Positions 1 to 21,006 of a stretch of 51,722 nt of DNA are shown in pieces. This stretch comes from Phycisphaerae bacterium (GTDB taxonomy: Bacteria > Chloroflexota > Anaerolineae > 4572-78 > J111): positions 1 to 51,722 of the forward strand of contig JANQQF010000007.1 in NCBI GenBank assembly GCA_028285035.1. The letters are read 5' to 3'. Below the pieces are notes generated by a model. The model searched no databases. It was not told the DNA's origin and was given only the letters and a program-made list of their open reading frames with translations. The position numbers and the translations under genes are program-made. The stretch's first letter is position 1. Every line of letters starts with the position of its first letter.

Positions 1-149
1 GTTTGGGAAAGTACTATAACTACCATTTTTCCGCAGTTGAAACCTGCCCTGTTTGAACGAAAAAGTTGAAACTCCTTCTATTTGTACAAAAATAAGGTAT
101 TAAATGACAGTCTACACTAATCACTAGACACTTACGATAAGGGACAATT

Positions 150-14562: not shown

Positions 14563-16998
14563 TTAGGCAGGGGCCTCTACAGGCTGACGACCAGTAATGC
14601 GGCGGAAGAAGTTACCAAGCTCGCCTTGTTTCCAAGAAACTAGAACGGGAACAGCGTTGAAGATAGATGAGTAGGTTCCACTAATGACCCCGATCAGAAT
14701 CGTAGCAATAAATTGATTGACGGTTGCCCCGCCAAAGAAGAGAATAGCGGCTACAACAAACATCGTACTCAACGAGGTACCAAGACTACGATTGAGGGTT
14801 TCCAACAGGCTACGATTACAAACCGTTTCATACGCCTCTGTACGATAGCGGGGTAGGTTTTCACGCACCCGGTCAAATACGATGATCGTATCGTGAACGG
14901 AGTAACCGATGACGGTCAAAATTGCGGTCAGGAATAAGGCATCGATCTCCCAACCCCAAATCAAACCAAAGATAGCAAACAGACCAGCGGTCAACAACAT
15001 ATCATGGAACATTGCTATAACGGCAGCAACCCCGTAGCGGAAGGCGTTGGGTACCGAGCGGAAGGCGAATACCAAATAAAGAAGGATTGCAACAGCAGCA
15101 GCTAAAACCGCATAAGCCCCCGCCTGAGTGACCTCACCTCCAATGGTTGGTCCAACCGAGTCAACCCGAAGTTCCTCAAAGTTGCCAAGTTCGCTCCGCA
15201 AATTTTCTTGAACAAGCAATTTGGCTTCATCATTCAGGAATTTTGAGCGAATTAAGATCGTTTCTTCACCTGCAATCTCTGCTGTAGTAACAATCGTATC
15301 ATTGAAATCAACCTCATCAAACGCAAAATCCTCAAAAATGGTCAGGACTTGACCTGGTTGAACTGGTTGGTCAAAATTCAACTCCATCAATGTACCACCG
15401 ACAAAGTCGATGCTAGGCTTGAGGGGGCTACCAAATTGAGCGACAGAAATGCCCATACCAATCAGACCTGGAATAATTAATAAGGCTGATAAAAGATAGT
15501 ATGAGCGGCGATACCCAGCGATGTTAAATATCGCAGACATCCAGCTAGGCGCACTTCTTTCGGATCCGAGCATACTAAAGCCCATTAGGACCGCATTATC
15601 TTTAACCCCAGCCCCTGTAATCCCAAAGACAAAGCGCATGAACGCACGGGTTACAGTCATAGCGGTAAACAAATTGAGCACAACCCCAATGAAAAGGGTA
15701 ATGGCAAACCCTTTCACAATACTCGCCCCAAAGTTGGTTCCAAACCAGAACAAGATGGCACAAGTAATAATCGTGCTAACCGCAGAATCACGGATCGAAG
15801 GCCAGGAGCGACGGAAGCTGAATTCCAAAGCCAGCTTCATATTACGGCCAGAGCGCAATTCTTCCTTAAGTCGTTCAAACACTAAGATATTGGCATCAAC
15901 CGCCATCCCCACCGATAGAATAAACCCGGTAATAGCTGGTAAAGTTAGCGTTACGGGAATGAGCTTGTAGACCGCAAAGTTAAGAAGACCATAGATAATC
16001 AAGGCCAAAGCGGCAATAAATCCAGGGAGGCGATAGTAGACAACCATGAACAGAAGAACCACGATCAGGCCGAGCGTTCCAGCCCGAATACTTTTGGCAA
16101 CAGAGTCTTGTCCCAAAGTCGGCCCAACAGTTCGGTTCTCAACGACTTCCAGCGGAATAGGTAGGGCACCATACTGCAACTGAATGGAAAGAGCTTGTGC
16201 CTCTTCCAGTGAGTCATTGTTCCCTAAAGAAATTGTCCCTTGCGTTGTAATTTGAGCACGAATTGTGGGACAAGAGACAACAACCTTATCCAAGACAATA
16301 CAAAGGAAGTTTCCAATATTGGAACCAGAGTATTGCCCGAAAACCTGACCGCCGTCTGAGGTAAGGGTAAAGGGAATATCGATGCTACGCGTGTTAGGGT
16401 CAAACCGAGCCGCTTCAACACGATCTAACGAGCTACCCGTGATGATGGTTTCATACACAGCATCTGGGGCAACCTCACCTTCTTCGCCTTCGACAGGTTC
16501 ATCGCTCAAGCTTGTTTGAATTCGGGTTCCAGCAGGAATCGGGGCAGGGCCAGCATCAACAAACTCAAGCAATCCCGTTTCTTTTAGGGTGCGAATGGCC
16601 AAATCAGGATCAGAAATCCCTGGCAATTCAACAATCATGCGATCCTCGCCTTGTAGCTGAACCAAAGGCTCAGTCACACCAAGAGCATTCACCCGATTGT
16701 CCACCACAATTCGGGCTGCCTCCATCGCACCATCACCCAGTTCTTGGCCTTGGGGCAGATCAGCTTGGAGGACCACTTGTAAGCCCCCCTGCAAATCAAG
16801 CCCTTGGTGAACCCGAATACTACGCTGTTGGTCCCCCTGCCAAATGAGCAAGCTGGCCCACCAAGGCGGTTGCTCCGTGTTGATCGCGGCGTCGGATTCT
16901 GGTGGGTAGGTATATTCCACTTCAGAAATAACAACCCAGACCGATAGGCCTGTTAAAATTAATAAAGCAATAACTGTGAGAATGTTCCGTTGAGTCAT
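14563..16998 (-). CDS. secDF: Fused protein-export protein SecDF
   Basis: An 811-residue polytopic membrane protein that uses the proton gradient to pull secreted proteins through SecYEG. The SecD half has an N-terminal span (residues about 7-25), LDLQGGLQVVLQAD, a large periplasmic P1 region, and the membrane block with TLPAITGFILSVGMAVDANILVFERLKEEL. The SecF half follows from about residue 490, with SIDFVGGTLMEL and ILTVIGYSVHDTIIVFDRVREN. The two characteristic D-containing helices of the proton path are present in both halves. SecD and SecF are separate genes in many bacteria; the fusion is also common. A terminator follows, and the Lgt/selenoprotein operon ends just upstream. Confidence 0.95.
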   Translation of the reverse strand: MTQRNILTVIALLILTGLSVWVVISEVEYTYPPESDAAINTEQPPWWASLLIWQGDQQRSIRVHQGLDLQGGLQVVLQADLPQGQELGDGAMEAARIVVDNRVNALGVTEPLVQLQGEDRMIVELPGISDPDLAIRTLKETGLLEFVDAGPAPIPAGTRIQTSLSDEPVEGEEGEVAPDAVYETIITGSSLDRVEAARFDPNTRSIDIPFTLTSDGGQVFGQYSGSNIGNFLCIVLDKVVVSCPTIRAQITTQGTISLGNNDSLEEAQALSIQLQYGALPIPLEVVENRTVGPTLGQDSVAKSIRAGTLGLIVVLLFMVVYYRLPGFIAALALIIYGLLNFAVYKLIPVTLTLPAITGFILSVGMAVDANILVFERLKEELRSGRNMKLALEFSFRRSWPSIRDSAVSTIITCAILFWFGTNFGASIVKGFAITLFIGVVLNLFTAMTVTRAFMRFVFGITGAGVKDNAVLMGFSMLGSERSAPSWMSAIFNIAGYRRSYYLLSALLIIPGLIGMGISVAQFGSPLKPSIDFVGGTLMELNFDQPVQPGQVLTIFEDFAFDEVDFNDTIVTTAEIAGEETILIRSKFLNDEAKLLVQENLRSELGNFEELRVDSVGPTIGGEVTQAGAYAVLAAAVAILLYLVFAFRSVPNAFRYGVAAVIAMFHDMLLTAGLFAIFGLIWGWEIDALFLTAILTVIGYSVHDTIIVFDRVRENLPRYRTEAYETVCNRSLLETLNRSLGTSLSTMFVVAAILFFGGATVNQFIATILIGVISGTYSSIFNAVPVLVSWKQGELGNFFRRITGRQPVEAPA

Positions 16999-17172
16999 AA
17001 CAACTATTCAAGCCTCTACTTAACTAAGGGATGTGAATCAATTAACGATTTATTTTATGATTGTCTCGATCAGAAAGTCAATCAATTCTTGGTCTGAACA
17101 GGATCAGATTGCAAACAAGCCGATTATAGCCTCGGCTCTAACAATGTCAAATGAACCTAAATTGACTCCAAT

Positions 17173-17209
17173 AAAAAAGACCCCAAACATTAAAATTAAG
17201 GGTCTTTTG
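17173..17209 (-). terminator. Intrinsic terminator after the lgt-selenoprotein operon
   Basis: On the minus strand AAAAGACCC (17208-17200) pairs with GGGTCTTTT (17183-17175) around a 16-base loop, followed by T. It lies 27 bases after the stop of the small Rdx gene and before secDF, so secDF is a separate unit. Confidence 0.75.
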
Positions 17210-17235
17210 CTTATTATTTGAATAAATCACTAAAG

Positions 17236-17481
17236 TTAAGACAATTTTGCCTCAACCAGTCGATATATCTCACCAGGTTCAGCATGCCGCTCGGTTGATA
17301 ATTTTGAGTAAACAAGCTCTTCATTAACCGTTACTTCAAAGCGACCACCTTTTGAAGGAATGGCAGTCAGGGACTCGATCTGTGGGCCAAGCGTTTCATC
17401 ATCCAACAATTCAGACATCAGGCTCACGGCCCGAGGCGTATAGTTTCAAACACGACAATATTCAAGGGTGATTTTTAACAT
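17236..17481 (-). CDS. SelW/Rdx-family selenoprotein with in-frame TGA (CxxU)
   Basis: Read from ATG 17481 with TGA at 17448-17446 decoded as selenocysteine (U), this is an 81-residue Rdx/SelW-like thioredoxin-fold protein: MLKITLEYCRVUNY, then PRAVSLMSELL, PSKGGRFEVTVNEELVYSK and HAEPGEIYRLVEAKL. The family normally has CxxC or CxxU after the first beta strand; here the second redox residue falls exactly on the TGA. The downstream part alone (from GTG 17427) lacks the active site. TAGGAAGG, overlapping the lgt stop, gives a Shine-Dalgarno ten bases before the ATG, so the gene is coupled to lgt. A hairpin suitable as a bacterial SECIS follows the TGA. The alternative is a Cys-to-stop mutation or a base error. 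Confidence 0.88.
17418..17448 (-). promoter_or_regulatory. UGA selenocysteine codon and SECIS-like hairpin
   Basis: UGA (17448-17446) is followed after 11 nt by UCGGGC (17434-17429), a five-base loop CGUGA and GCCUGA (17423-17418), pairing in six base pairs with one G-U. The 17-nt upper hairpin, the 11-nt spacing and the GU in the loop resemble the SelB-binding hairpin of E. coli fdhF. Folding is by eye. Confidence 0.65.
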
Positions 17482-17496
17482 TTCTAGATCGCCTTC

Positions 17497-18423
17497 CTAA
17501 GCCTTATTACGACGAACTTTTCGAGAAGCGGGTGGGCGACGGGTTGAGCGACGGGTATATTCTAGTGAGCCAGCTTCCATAAAAGGAACCGAAATTCTAC
17601 CTGATCGTACCAAAATAATAAATAGCCCGACAAGCGCAAAAATTATGGAGAGAAGCATTGAGGTGCTAATGCCTAAGCCAAAAAATTCAGGCTGATCAGG
17701 GCGGAAGTTACTCTCAAGCACAGCTCGTCCGATGCCGGTAGCTAACAAGGCACAACCCGCGATAACACCAGTCGCAATTTTGTCACCACGCCGTAAGATT
17801 AAGAAGGTGATAATTCCAGCAGCCAATAGATTCCAAACCATTTCATAGGCAAAGGTTGGGTGAAAGAGGGTCGTCTCTATAGGATATGCTGTTAAATCCC
17901 GCCAAGGGTCAATTCTGTAATCAGCCTGAATGGGAATCCCCCACGGCAAATCAGTGGGGGGACCATAAAGTTCTTGATTGATAAAATTAGCAAGACGACC
18001 AACCGCTTGACCGATTAGGTAGCCAGGGCCGATGGCATCAGCTAATAGCCAAAAATCGACCTTATATCGTCTAGCATAGTACCACCCAATCGCTACGGCA
18101 AAAATAACACCACCTAAAATATTCAAGCCACCTTGATCAACTCGAAAAATAGTGGTTGGGTCATCAAGATATCGGCTATCACCACCAATCATATCAGCGA
18201 CGACAAACCAAATACGTGCACCAACTAAGCCTGCTATCAAAATCCAAATCATCGAGTCCCACACAATATTTGGGTCTTGTCGTTTTCGGCGAAAATACCA
18301 AGCCGCATAGAATGCGGCGCATAGCGCCCCAAACATGACGAGTAAACCATACCAACGAATAGGTAAAGAAAAATCACCTATTTGAATAGTATAGATAATT
18401 GGATCAATCGGTTCTGGAAACAC
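17497..18423 (-). CDS. lgt: Prolipoprotein diacylglyceryl transferase
   Basis: A 308-residue membrane enzyme that moves a diacylglyceryl group from phosphatidylglycerol to the lipobox cysteine of prolipoproteins. About seven spans are visible. The Lgt signature is present as GRLANFINQELYG (arginine conserved), with LFHPTFAYEM and FRPDQPEF (second conserved arginine) further on. The loop that reads GGMSFHGG in E. coli is GGLNILGG here, so the usual His is Leu. The start is GTG 18423. The gene lies 47 bases after the alkaline-phosphatase-superfamily gene and is coupled to the selenoprotein gene. The basic tail (TRRSTRRPPASRKVRR) is cytoplasmic. Confidence 0.9.
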   Translation of the reverse strand: MFPEPIDPIIYTIQIGDFSLPIRWYGLLVMFGALCAAFYAAWYFRRKRQDPNIVWDSMIWILIAGLVGARIWFVVADMIGGDSRYLDDPTTIFRVDQGGLNILGGVIFAVAIGWYYARRYKVDFWLLADAIGPGYLIGQAVGRLANFINQELYGPPTDLPWGIPIQADYRIDPWRDLTAYPIETTLFHPTFAYEMVWNLLAAGIITFLILRRGDKIATGVIAGCALLATGIGRAVLESNFRPDQPEFFGLGISTSMLLSIIFALVGLFIILVRSGRISVPFMEAGSLEYTRRSTRRPPASRKVRRNKA

Positions 18424-18470
18424 AATACTTTTACCTTTCTAGCCTGAGTGGCTTACTCAGACAATTGACA

Positions 18471-20042
18471 TTACTCTATATACCCCAAGGCTCTTAACTG
18501 CTTTAGAATGTTTTCATCATTCTCAAAATTCACCGAATTTTTACTTTGCCAAGTATCAGGCTGTCTCGCAATGGCCTGGGTGACAAAATTCTTCAGTTTG
18601 ACTGACAGAGTATCAGCGATAGTAGTATGGTCTTGGATAATATTTTCTTCTTCAGTGGGGCTACTTGTTAGGTTGTACAACTCATCACGAACACCATCAA
18701 TTCTAATGAGCTTATACTCGTCGTTATATGCAGCCCAACGATTAAGCGTACAATGAAATTTCTCAATATACTCCGGGGCATGTCGCTGAAGAATGCCTAA
18801 AATCGTGGAGGGAGGATAGGCTTCTACAAATACAGTACCAGCTTCTGGGTCATCCCCTAATACAGTTTGTTTCAAACTAAGATCACTCGCATTTGTTGCG
18901 GGTCGATATTCTGTTTCATTCAATTTTACATGAGCGGTATCAAGAATGGTATGGAAGATACGTCGCGTGGAAACATTCTCACTAATCGTTTGATTTTGAG
19001 CCATTTGATCCGGGAACTTAATCATCAATGGCACATGAACGAGTTCTTGATATGTAACAAATGAATGTCCCATAAAATTATGCTCACCCATTCCTTCACC
19101 ATGATCAGCGACGATAATGGTGAGGGTGTCTTCAAGTTGATTCAAGTATTCAAGTAGAGGCTGGAGTAAATGGTCCTGATAGTTAACCTCAACATCATAC
19201 ATATCACTTAGGGCTTGCGTCTCAAATTCATCCAGCTCACCATCATCCACAGGTAGCAACCAACGATATGCCTCAGTATTATGAAGCCGAATTATATCCC
19301 GAGCTTCACGGCTATCCTTAAAATAAGGCATAAATTTGTCAATAAACTTACCAGGTGGATTGTATGGAGTATGGGTCTCCATCAAGTTAAAGAAGACAAA
19401 TTGAGGGGTGGAGTCATTTGCCTTTTCTTCAAGGAACTGTTTGACATCTTGAATACTTTGAGCCGTATTCCCCTTGAAGTTTCCTAATTTTGTCCAAATT
19501 GGGACAAAACTGGCATTCATTGATACCTTAAAAAGCCAATCTGAATGAGCAAAGGCATTTTGAATTGGATAGGAAAATTTGCGAAGTTGTTGGGTATATT
19601 TTTCCCAAAGCCGATCAAAAGGCTTGGGTATCCGGCTAGAGCGACTCGGCACCGAGGGAACCGCGCCACAATAATTATAAAAGGTACCAAATCCACGCTG
19701 TAATCCATTGTTCAAAACGCCTAACAACGGATTATTGCAAAACCCAGTGGTGTTGTAGCCACTGGCACTTAACAGCCCCGCTAACGTATCAAACCGCTCA
19801 TCCAAAGCATCGTGTACTTGAACCGTTTGATGGGTTGTGGGATATTCGCCGGTAAACATGGAGGTGTGTGAGGGGGTGGTCCATTGAGCTGCCGAAATGC
19901 CATTCTCAAAGGTTGTTGCATTTCGAGCAAAATCATCAATATTCGGTGTCGTTTCTCGATCATATCCATACAATGAAAGCCGATCTCGACGATGTGTATC
20001 AAGGACAATGAGAACGATATTGGGATATTTTTTTCCGACCAT
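18471..20042 (-). CDS. Sulfatase-like alkaline-phosphatase-superfamily hydrolase, Thr at the nucleophile position
   Basis: A 523-residue protein of the sulfatase fold: PNIVLIVLDTHRRDRLSLYGY (metal-binding Asp), TTPNIDDFA, WTTPSHTSMFTGEYP, FVFFNLMETHTPYNPP and TIIVADHGEGMGEHNFMGH (metal-binding Asp and His). In true sulfatases the nucleophile is Cys or Ser in CxPSR; here the same position is Thr (TTPSH) and the arginine is His, which fits phosphodi/transferase members of the superfamily better than sulfate ester hydrolysis. No signal peptide is visible, so it would be cytoplasmic or peripheral. It is sandwiched between two lgt paralogues on the same strand, which hints at envelope lipid metabolism, but the substrate is unknown. 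Confidence 0.85.
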   Translation of the reverse strand: MVGKKYPNIVLIVLDTHRRDRLSLYGYDRETTPNIDDFARNATTFENGISAAQWTTPSHTSMFTGEYPTTHQTVQVHDALDERFDTLAGLLSASGYNTTGFCNNPLLGVLNNGLQRGFGTFYNYCGAVPSVPSRSSRIPKPFDRLWEKYTQQLRKFSYPIQNAFAHSDWLFKVSMNASFVPIWTKLGNFKGNTAQSIQDVKQFLEEKANDSTPQFVFFNLMETHTPYNPPGKFIDKFMPYFKDSREARDIIRLHNTEAYRWLLPVDDGELDEFETQALSDMYDVEVNYQDHLLQPLLEYLNQLEDTLTIIVADHGEGMGEHNFMGHSFVTYQELVHVPLMIKFPDQMAQNQTISENVSTRRIFHTILDTAHVKLNETEYRPATNASDLSLKQTVLGDDPEAGTVFVEAYPPSTILGILQRHAPEYIEKFHCTLNRWAAYNDEYKLIRIDGVRDELYNLTSSPTEEENIIQDHTTIADTLSVKLKNFVTQAIARQPDTWQSKNSVNFENDENILKQLRALGYIE

Positions 20043-20142
20043 TAAATAATATAAACCCTTTCAAAGGCTGTAGCCCGCTAGTTTAACTTGCCTAAGGCAT
20101 AGAGGCAAATGTTAGATAACTTACCCCGTCGAAGCCAATAAC

Positions 20143-21006
20143 TTAGTTGGATGATCGACGATTAATGTAAATCAAATAAAGACCAAACACAATCGCAATG
20201 AAACTAACAACTTGAGCGACAGGCACTTCTAAGATTACCCAAGCATCAGGTCGAAGCGCCTCTGTAAACAATCGGCCTAATGAATAAAAAATAAGATATG
20301 CTGCGAAAATATCACCGTCACGTAGCCACCTCGGAGACTGACGAGAAATGATAAGCAGTATGATAAACCCAATTAGCGTCCAAATTGACTCATAAAGAAA
20401 TACCGGGTGAAAAAGTGTCTCTAGTGGGTAGACGGTCAAGTCATCATAGGGGGTAATCCGCTGATTGACATTCGTAATAGTAATCCCCCAAGGCAAGGTA
20501 GTTGCAGTCCCATAAAGCTCTTGGTTGAAAAAATTTCCCCAGCGCCCAATCGTTTGCCCCAATAATAGAGCCAAGGCTGTAATATCAAGCCAACGCCAGG
20601 TATTAAGATGATGTCGTCGCGTGTAAAGTATGACAGCTAAAATGCCGCCTAATATTCCCCCAAAAAGACCGACACCGCCTTCCCAAATAAACAAGGCCGT
20701 TGGAAACGGAATGGCGATACCAAAAATGGTGAAATTAGAAAAAGGCTGTTCAATAAAGTAGTAGTTGAAATTCCGACTAGCACCGAACGGGGAAGACATA
20801 ATATGATATAGACGGGCACCAATAATTCCGACAATCAAAATCCAAACCAATAAATCTGCAATATGTCTAACGTCTTCATTTCGACGTTTGACCTCCAAGT
20901 ACGCAATCGATGCACTGACAACAATTGCACATATCAGCAGAGCACCATGCCAGTGAATCGTAAGTGGGCCACTTTGATATAAAATCGGACTTTGGGGAGA
21001 CTCCAT
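20143..21006 (-). CDS. lgt: Second prolipoprotein diacylglyceryl transferase
   Basis: A 287-residue membrane protein, paralogous to 17497-18423. It has GALLICAIVVSASIAYLEV, GARLYHIMSSP, GQTIGRWGNFFNQELYG (the Lgt signature with its arginine), LFHPVFLYES and TEALRPDAWV. The GGMSFHGG loop of E. coli reads GGVGLFGG, so the His position is Phe. ATG 21006 has AAAGG six bases upstream, and a good promoter lies immediately before it. It heads the run lgt - sulfatase-like - lgt - selenoprotein. Whether both Lgt copies are active, or one prefers other lipids or substrates, cannot be told from sequence. Confidence 0.9.
   Translation of the reverse strand: MESPQSPILYQSGPLTIHWHGALLICAIVVSASIAYLEVKRRNEDVRHIADLLVWILIVGIIGARLYHIMSSPFGASRNFNYYFIEQPFSNFTIFGIAIPFPTALFIWEGGVGLFGGILGGILAVILYTRRHHLNTWRWLDITALALLLGQTIGRWGNFFNQELYGTATTLPWGITITNVNQRITPYDDLTVYPLETLFHPVFLYESIWTLIGFIILLIISRQSPRWLRDGDIFAAYLIFYSLGRLFTEALRPDAWVILEVPVAQVVSFIAIVFGLYLIYINRRSSN

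Follow-up and report, generated by a model that had tools for sequence, protein, structure and literature searches.

A very probable SelW-like selenoprotein gene of the Rdx family in Chloroflexota, with an in-frame TGA, and SECIS hairpins in two registers among its relatives

The gene described here almost certainly encodes a selenocysteine-containing SelW-like protein (Rdx family) of a Chloroflexota bacterium. It lies in a stretch of 51,722 nucleotides, which is called the window below. The preliminary description of this DNA had proposed an Rdx/SelW-family selenoprotein hidden by an in-frame TGA, and this proposal is borne out by Pfam and NCBIfam matches and by a TGA at the aligned codon in every homologous locus of two samples. 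The actual insertion of selenocysteine (Sec) at the UGA is what we infer from the frame, the family, the position of the Sec codon, the conservation of the SECIS hairpin and the machinery found in kin, each of which was established by computation. The features of the gene are as follows.

17236-17481, minus strand: rdx / selW-like selenoprotein gene, 81 aa (translation with TGA as U; Pfam PF10262; NCBIfam TIGR02174)
17446-17448, minus strand: in-frame TGA, selenocysteine codon 12 of the CxxU motif (structure alignment; TGA in homologous loci)
17455-17457, minus strand: TGT, Cys of the CxxU motif, codon 9 (sequence)
17492-17498, minus strand: Shine-Dalgarno-like AGGAAGG, 10 nt ahead of the ATG, overlapping the lgt stop (sequence)
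17418-17434, minus strand: bacterial SECIS hairpin of 6 bp, with the loop CGUGA at 17428-17424 (folding; compensatory changes; synonymous-codon null)

The frame runs from the start codon ATG (17481-17479) to the stop TAA (17238-17236), and with the TGA read as U the product is MLKITLEYCRVUNYTPRAVSLMSELLDDETLGPQIESLTAIPSKGGRFEVTVNEELVYSKLSTERHAEPGEIYRLVEAKLS. Under the standard code only an ORF of 63 aa is obtained, started by GTG (17427-17236). The active-site codons are TGT CGT GTT TGA, with the TGA three codons past the Cys codon, and in the alignment the U column coincides with the second Cys of the CxxC motif in the solved Rdx structures 3dex, 2fa8 and 2p0g, so the assignment of the CxxC/U site to these codons stands. 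The ribosome binding site that had been said to overlap the lgt stop is also there, with AGGAAGG at 17498-17492 against the stop TAG at 17499-17497. All the described features were thus present at their place, but they are on the minus strand, which the preliminary description had left unstated.

The family assignment was based on curated profiles. The Pfam Rdx profile (PF10262) matches residues 3-77 with an E-value of 2e-17 and 63.6 bits (cut-off 22.6); this match spans the TGA and begins 9 residues ahead of it. With the NCBIfam profile TIGR02174 (CXXU_selWTH) the score is 54.1 bits (cut-off 34.2). The protein therefore has both marks of the Rdx / SelT-SelW-SelH family, a profile score over the curated cut-off and an N-terminal CxxC/U motif, here YCRVU.

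Homologous loci were collected in two samples. In the GTDB contig scan, a 34-row alignment (the window and 33 of the 120 listed database homologs) was matched on peptides downstream of U, and the best 80 of 381 confirmed loci were taken, whose record titles name Chloroflexota groups; a TGA three codons past the Cys codon was found at the aligned place in 80/80 of these best loci. The second sample consisted of 120 genomes from the class of the nearest kin and was searched with a 62-position model starting after U, by which Rdx genes were found in 48 genomes, with a TGA at the aligned position in 48/48. Alignment with homologues in related genomes had been suggested as a check, and in all 128 loci fetched it returned TGA and not a Cys codon. 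Both sets share some genes, and the window together with the 128 loci gave 124 different 45-mers after the TGA. A search of viral contigs yielded 16 stretches matching a pattern, none of which encodes a relative.

The expectation that gene finders would truncate the gene was confirmed in the protein databases. There, 406 homologs were found, and 108 of the 120 listed are 53-69 aa long; those of the short entries that were inspected begin after U. Eleven of the 120 listed homologs reach upstream of U, ten of them with W and one (P0003) with C at this position. The ten with Trp are P0002, P0007, P0009-P0012 and P0015-P0018, and the W is presumably a TGA translated under table 4 by metagenome gene callers, possibly a database artefact. 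P0003, which among the 120 listed homologs is 62% identical and has Cys at the U position, would be a true Cys form unless it is miscalled, so that a Cys form may exist somewhere. Among the database homologs, some are already annotated as Rdx family protein (Anaerolineales) or as selenoprotein W-related. Since the entries are mostly truncated pieces and some have an apparent false Trp, selenium use in Chloroflexota is probably undercounted.

A six-pair hairpin with a GU loop, said to begin 11 nt after the UGA, was found at +12 to +28 as UCGGGC-CGUGA-GCCUGA, with its loop starting 17 nt after the UGA. The pair probabilities are 0.92-0.99, and the minimum free energy (MFE) is -9.3 for the first 35-40 nt, -8.2 for 21 nt and -7.4 for the bare 17 nt. 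The bacterial SECIS (bSECIS) model, as given in the available passages of its source, has a loop of 3-9 nt with G in the first two positions, a stem of 4-16 bp, a distance of 16-37 nt from the UGA and an MFE at or under -7.5 (PMC13188914); the window hairpin, with its 5-nt loop, 6 bp and 17 nt, lies within the published constraints. Compared with dinucleotide shuffles, the free energy of the window is unremarkable (z -0.66, with 46/200 shuffles as good), and because this measure is uninformative here, synonymous-codon nulls were used instead. When codons are shuffled synonymously, all six pairs of the window seldom arise together (p 0.019). The MFE of the whole segment against synonymous codons is a weaker test than the pair-specific one, giving a mean z of -1.10, p<0.05 in 19/81 sequences and p 0.111 for the window.

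Across the 124 different sequences two hairpins are found, register A and register B, which are 4 nt apart. In register A, to which the window belongs, +12..17 pairs with +23..28 and the loop is +18 to +22. In register B, +17..21 pairs with +27..31, often together with +22:+26, and +16:+32 is added in about half (it is unpaired in 38 of the 81 B sequences); taken as a 5-nt loop, +22..26 reads for example AGUUU, GGUCU or AGUCU. A sequence was counted as A when none of the six A pairs was missing, and as B when no more than one of the 7 B pairs (+16:+32 to +22:+26) was; on this count 34 sequences belong to A alone, 73 to B alone and 8 to both, and 9 form neither hairpin. One or the other is thereby formed in 115/124, against 26.4 expected from synonymous codon redraws, and when the 3' arm was slid by 1 to 4 nt the count was 0/124 for A and did not exceed 7 for B. 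Two-sided pair changes occur in A at +12:+28 (8 sequences) and +15:+25 (4), and in B at +18:+30 (19), +20:+28 (14) and +19:+29 (8); the sets were chosen for pairing, and the low counts of broken pairs are partly a matter of construction.

Codon choice and loop sequence were also analyzed in these sequences. The choice of codon is restricted between +6 and +10 and relaxed by +13, and the Ser codon at +8 is AGY in 79/79, against 37% in the background. Typical codons differ synonymously between the registers, being GCC GTG AGC CTG in A and GCC GTC AGT TTG in B. The loop has the form C[NGUNN]G in 32/34 A-only and 58/81 B sequences, and a further form, AGGUU or AGGAU, is found in 15/81 B sequences. 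Under a stricter rule, which demands a closed stem with GU in the loop for A, or with G and then U/G in the loop for B, 75 of 80 unique sequences of the first set pass (A 36, B 42) against 4.9 expected. In the second set 43 of 44 further unique sequences pass (A 2, B 41) against 2.8 expected, this set being not blind, since the rule was finalized after these sequences had been looked at. Register A is rare beyond the nearest relatives, at 2/44 in the wider set, and three sequences (L012, L023 and L067) satisfy both strict rules and can form A and B.

That two registers exist is well supported. A quick tree of 74 protein columns needs 10 register changes: the window and the two loci closest to it, which are all of register A, are placed next to B sequences that form a group, and the bulk of the other A sequences falls in a different part. 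A single A clade is nevertheless not rejected by the AU test (p 0.845), and a better tree was found with the A sequences together; for this reason a recurrent origin of register A is not claimed. On balance we lean towards the view that each Chloroflexota rdx gene uses one of two mutually exclusive SECIS hairpins and that lineages moved between them via the dual-capable sequences, the recoding signal sliding along the message with no change of the protein. If this holds, the register shift would be a natural experiment on how exactly the spacing of UGA and loop must be kept for SelB. The two-register SECIS serves as a comparative data set on the tolerance of SelB for a UGA-loop shift.

The machinery for Sec was surveyed in relatives. 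Both nearest-kin genomes, G001 and G002, have selA (585 bits each) and a selD match over cut-off (368 and 365 bits), and both carry a tRNA-Sec with anticodon TCA. The selB of G002 is over cut-off in an open frame of 636 aa; that of G001 (locus L169) is in frameshifted pieces across several frames, by either assembly indels or decay. For 27 genomes chosen from the 80, tRNA-Sec is over cut-off in 25/27 and selB in 24/27. Neither was over cut-off in G020 and G026, both of which have selD, with a selA match of 21 bits in G020 and none in G026; the third selB miss is G001. By these relatives, the window's own genome would be expected to carry selA, selB, selC and selD.

Of the 48 Rdx genomes of the class sample, 42 have a tRNA-Sec scoring at least 60 bits; this line is our own and was drawn where the scores leave a gap, from 60.2 down to 54.0 bits. 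A further 53-bit match, in G057, was confirmed as tRNA-Sec by ARAGORN (anticodon TCA), and the five remaining Rdx genomes have selA, selB and selD over cut-off. By the same line tRNA-Sec is also present in 53 of the 72 class genomes that have no Rdx match, so Sec decoding is wider than rdx, and across the class Rdx is only weakly associated with tRNA-Sec. By the family cut-off of 47 bits, tRNA-Sec is found in 108/120 class genomes and in 5/14 control genomes. The selD genes of G001 and G002 each have one in-frame TGA. As a side observation, SelD has an in-frame TGA (KCAGUASK type) in 9/10 kin genomes searched (L159-L167), and 7 of the 9 fetched genes show GCAGGUNCUGC about 30 nt after the UGA, by our reading with a GU in the loop, the GGU standing about 33 nt after the UGA.

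These data bear on three other explanations of the TGA. It is very improbable that the TGA is a real stop, by which the locus would be a pseudogene or only the downstream 63-aa ORF would be made; this ORF does exist and the listed database entries are mostly short, but the TGA stands at exactly this codon, three past the Cys codon, in both samples, the domain match begins ahead of it, and the synonymous codons around the hairpin are constrained. A reading of the UGA as another amino acid with no selenium, be it Trp by code reassignment or Cys, would account for the W of ten listed homologs and is just as improbable. Among the 37 main ORFs of the window the stops are TAA in 21, TAG in 14 and TGA in 2, and their 198 Trp codons are TGG, so UGA is not a general sense codon; moreover the site is the CxxC/U redox position, the SECIS is conserved, and the tRNA-Sec of kin has the anticodon TCA.

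Still less credible is a sequencing or assembly error in place of a true TGT, TGC or TGG. The codon of the window is known from a single record, but the same codon recurs in 128 loci (80 + 48, a few of them shared), and such conservation excludes both an error and a decayed gene.

With selenocysteine as the preferred reading of the UGA, the following course of expression may be proposed. Translation of lgt and rdx would proceed from one mRNA, the two genes probably being co-transcribed. At the UGA (17448-17446) a complex of SelB, GTP and Sec-tRNA, tethered by the GU-containing hairpin loop 17 nt downstream, would insert Sec rather than allow termination. The product would adopt the thioredoxin-like fold of Rdx proteins, and in its CxxU redox loop Cys9, by analogy with the family, may act as the resolving Cys. 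It would most likely be a selenol/thiol oxidoreductase working via a selenenylsulfide between Cys9 and Sec12; both the fold and this chemistry are as would be expected for the family.

The surroundings of rdx in the window include the following features.

17497-18423, minus strand: lgt, upstream neighbour of rdx (Pfam LGT, E 5e-56; same order in L001)
18471-20042, minus strand: sulfatase-family ORF between the two lgt copies (Pfam Sulfatase, E 5e-45; a 59% identical ORF at the same place in L001)
20143-21006, minus strand: second lgt paralogue (Pfam LGT, E 2e-65; kept in L001)
17165-17215, minus strand: terminator-like hairpin with a U-run past the rdx stop (-14.6 kcal/mol, z -3.76)

Two lgt paralogues thus flank a sulfatase-family ORF over 17497-21006 (minus strand). 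The nearest kin loci are L001 and L002, whose rdx genes have 69% and 67% identity to that of the window. L001 keeps the block lgt - sulfatase - lgt - rdx, the three neighbours being 66, 59 and 61% identical; L002 has one lgt beside rdx, which is 60% identical to the second lgt of the window and 39% to the first. In four other loci (L013, L017, L023 and L027) rdx is directly followed by what we take to be a tryptophanyl-tRNA synthetase gene (KKGRVFSGARPTGRQHLGNYLGA). No terminator was listed at the hairpin 17165-17215 by a simple terminator scan. A full sigma-70 consensus (12/12; TTGACA, 16 nt, TATAAT) is located at 17150-17123 on the minus strand, between rdx and secDF (14563-16998), and adjoins this hairpin; given the consensus promoter and the terminator-like hairpin, secDF is probably transcribed from its own promoter. 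At gathering cut-offs Rfam gave no match in the window, and no tRNA was found there. The window was also scanned for further frames interrupted by a TGA, in those stretches of which the main ORFs cover less than half, with at least 5 codons before the TGA, 30 after it and 60 in total; seven other frames were obtained, none of which matched Pfam up to E 0.1, and no second selenoprotein was found among them.

SelW-like (Rdx, CxxU) proteins were known as bacterial selenoproteins by 2005-2006, and the family is not new; what is new is the Chloroflexota member and one comparative observation, the two SECIS registers. A well-supported and usually mis-annotated selenoprotein is thereby added to a large, mostly uncultured bacterial group, in which Rdx was always a Sec protein in the 128 loci fetched. 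In the published passages available to us, SelW-like proteins rank with the most abundant selenoproteins of bacteria, and Cys forms are few in organisms that use Sec (PMC1088965, PMC1794560, PMC2398784). These passages count 48 SelW-like genes in the Sargasso Sea set (PMC1088965), 10 SelW-like proteins in 2006, when Cys forms were very scarce among Sec users (PMC1794560), and 427 SelW-like selenoproteins against 56 Cys homologs in the GOS data (PMC2398784). For Chloroflexi, 3 selenoproteins in 3 families are counted, with names not given in that passage (PMC1794560), and SelW-like is listed under pfam10262 in a 2022 review, as excerpted (PMC9312934). In the passages and openly accessible literature searched (subscription journals being outside the scope), neither a SelW-like protein of Chloroflexota nor a shift of SECIS register was found.

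The gene of the window shares with the bacterial SelW-like selenoproteins (PF10262) the fold family, the CxxU motif and a bSECIS directly 3' of the UGA. The passages on those proteins name none from Chloroflexota, whereas here Sec is found in all 128 loci and with two SECIS registers. The best NCBIfam match by E-value is the epsilonproteobacterial SelW / SelTWH (NF041051, SelTWH_Campy) at 76.8 bits, which is below its cut-off of 88 bits, so that the window protein differs in not being a member of this equivalog. The SelW genes of Epsilonproteobacteria were, like that of the window, missed in annotation, and they have a 5/6-bp apical-loop SECIS, according to the relevant part of that report (PMC4607533). 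The Cys-type Rdx proteins 3dex, 2fa8 and 2p0g can be aligned with the window protein over 58-77 residues and have CxxC at the CxxU site, with Cys where the window protein has Sec. The window hairpin may be likened to the bSECIS of E. coli fdhF, from which it would differ in stem sequence and exact distance. With the canonical bSECIS, as outlined in the passage available, it shares a small apical loop with G then U, at 16-37 nt from the UGA (PMC13188914).
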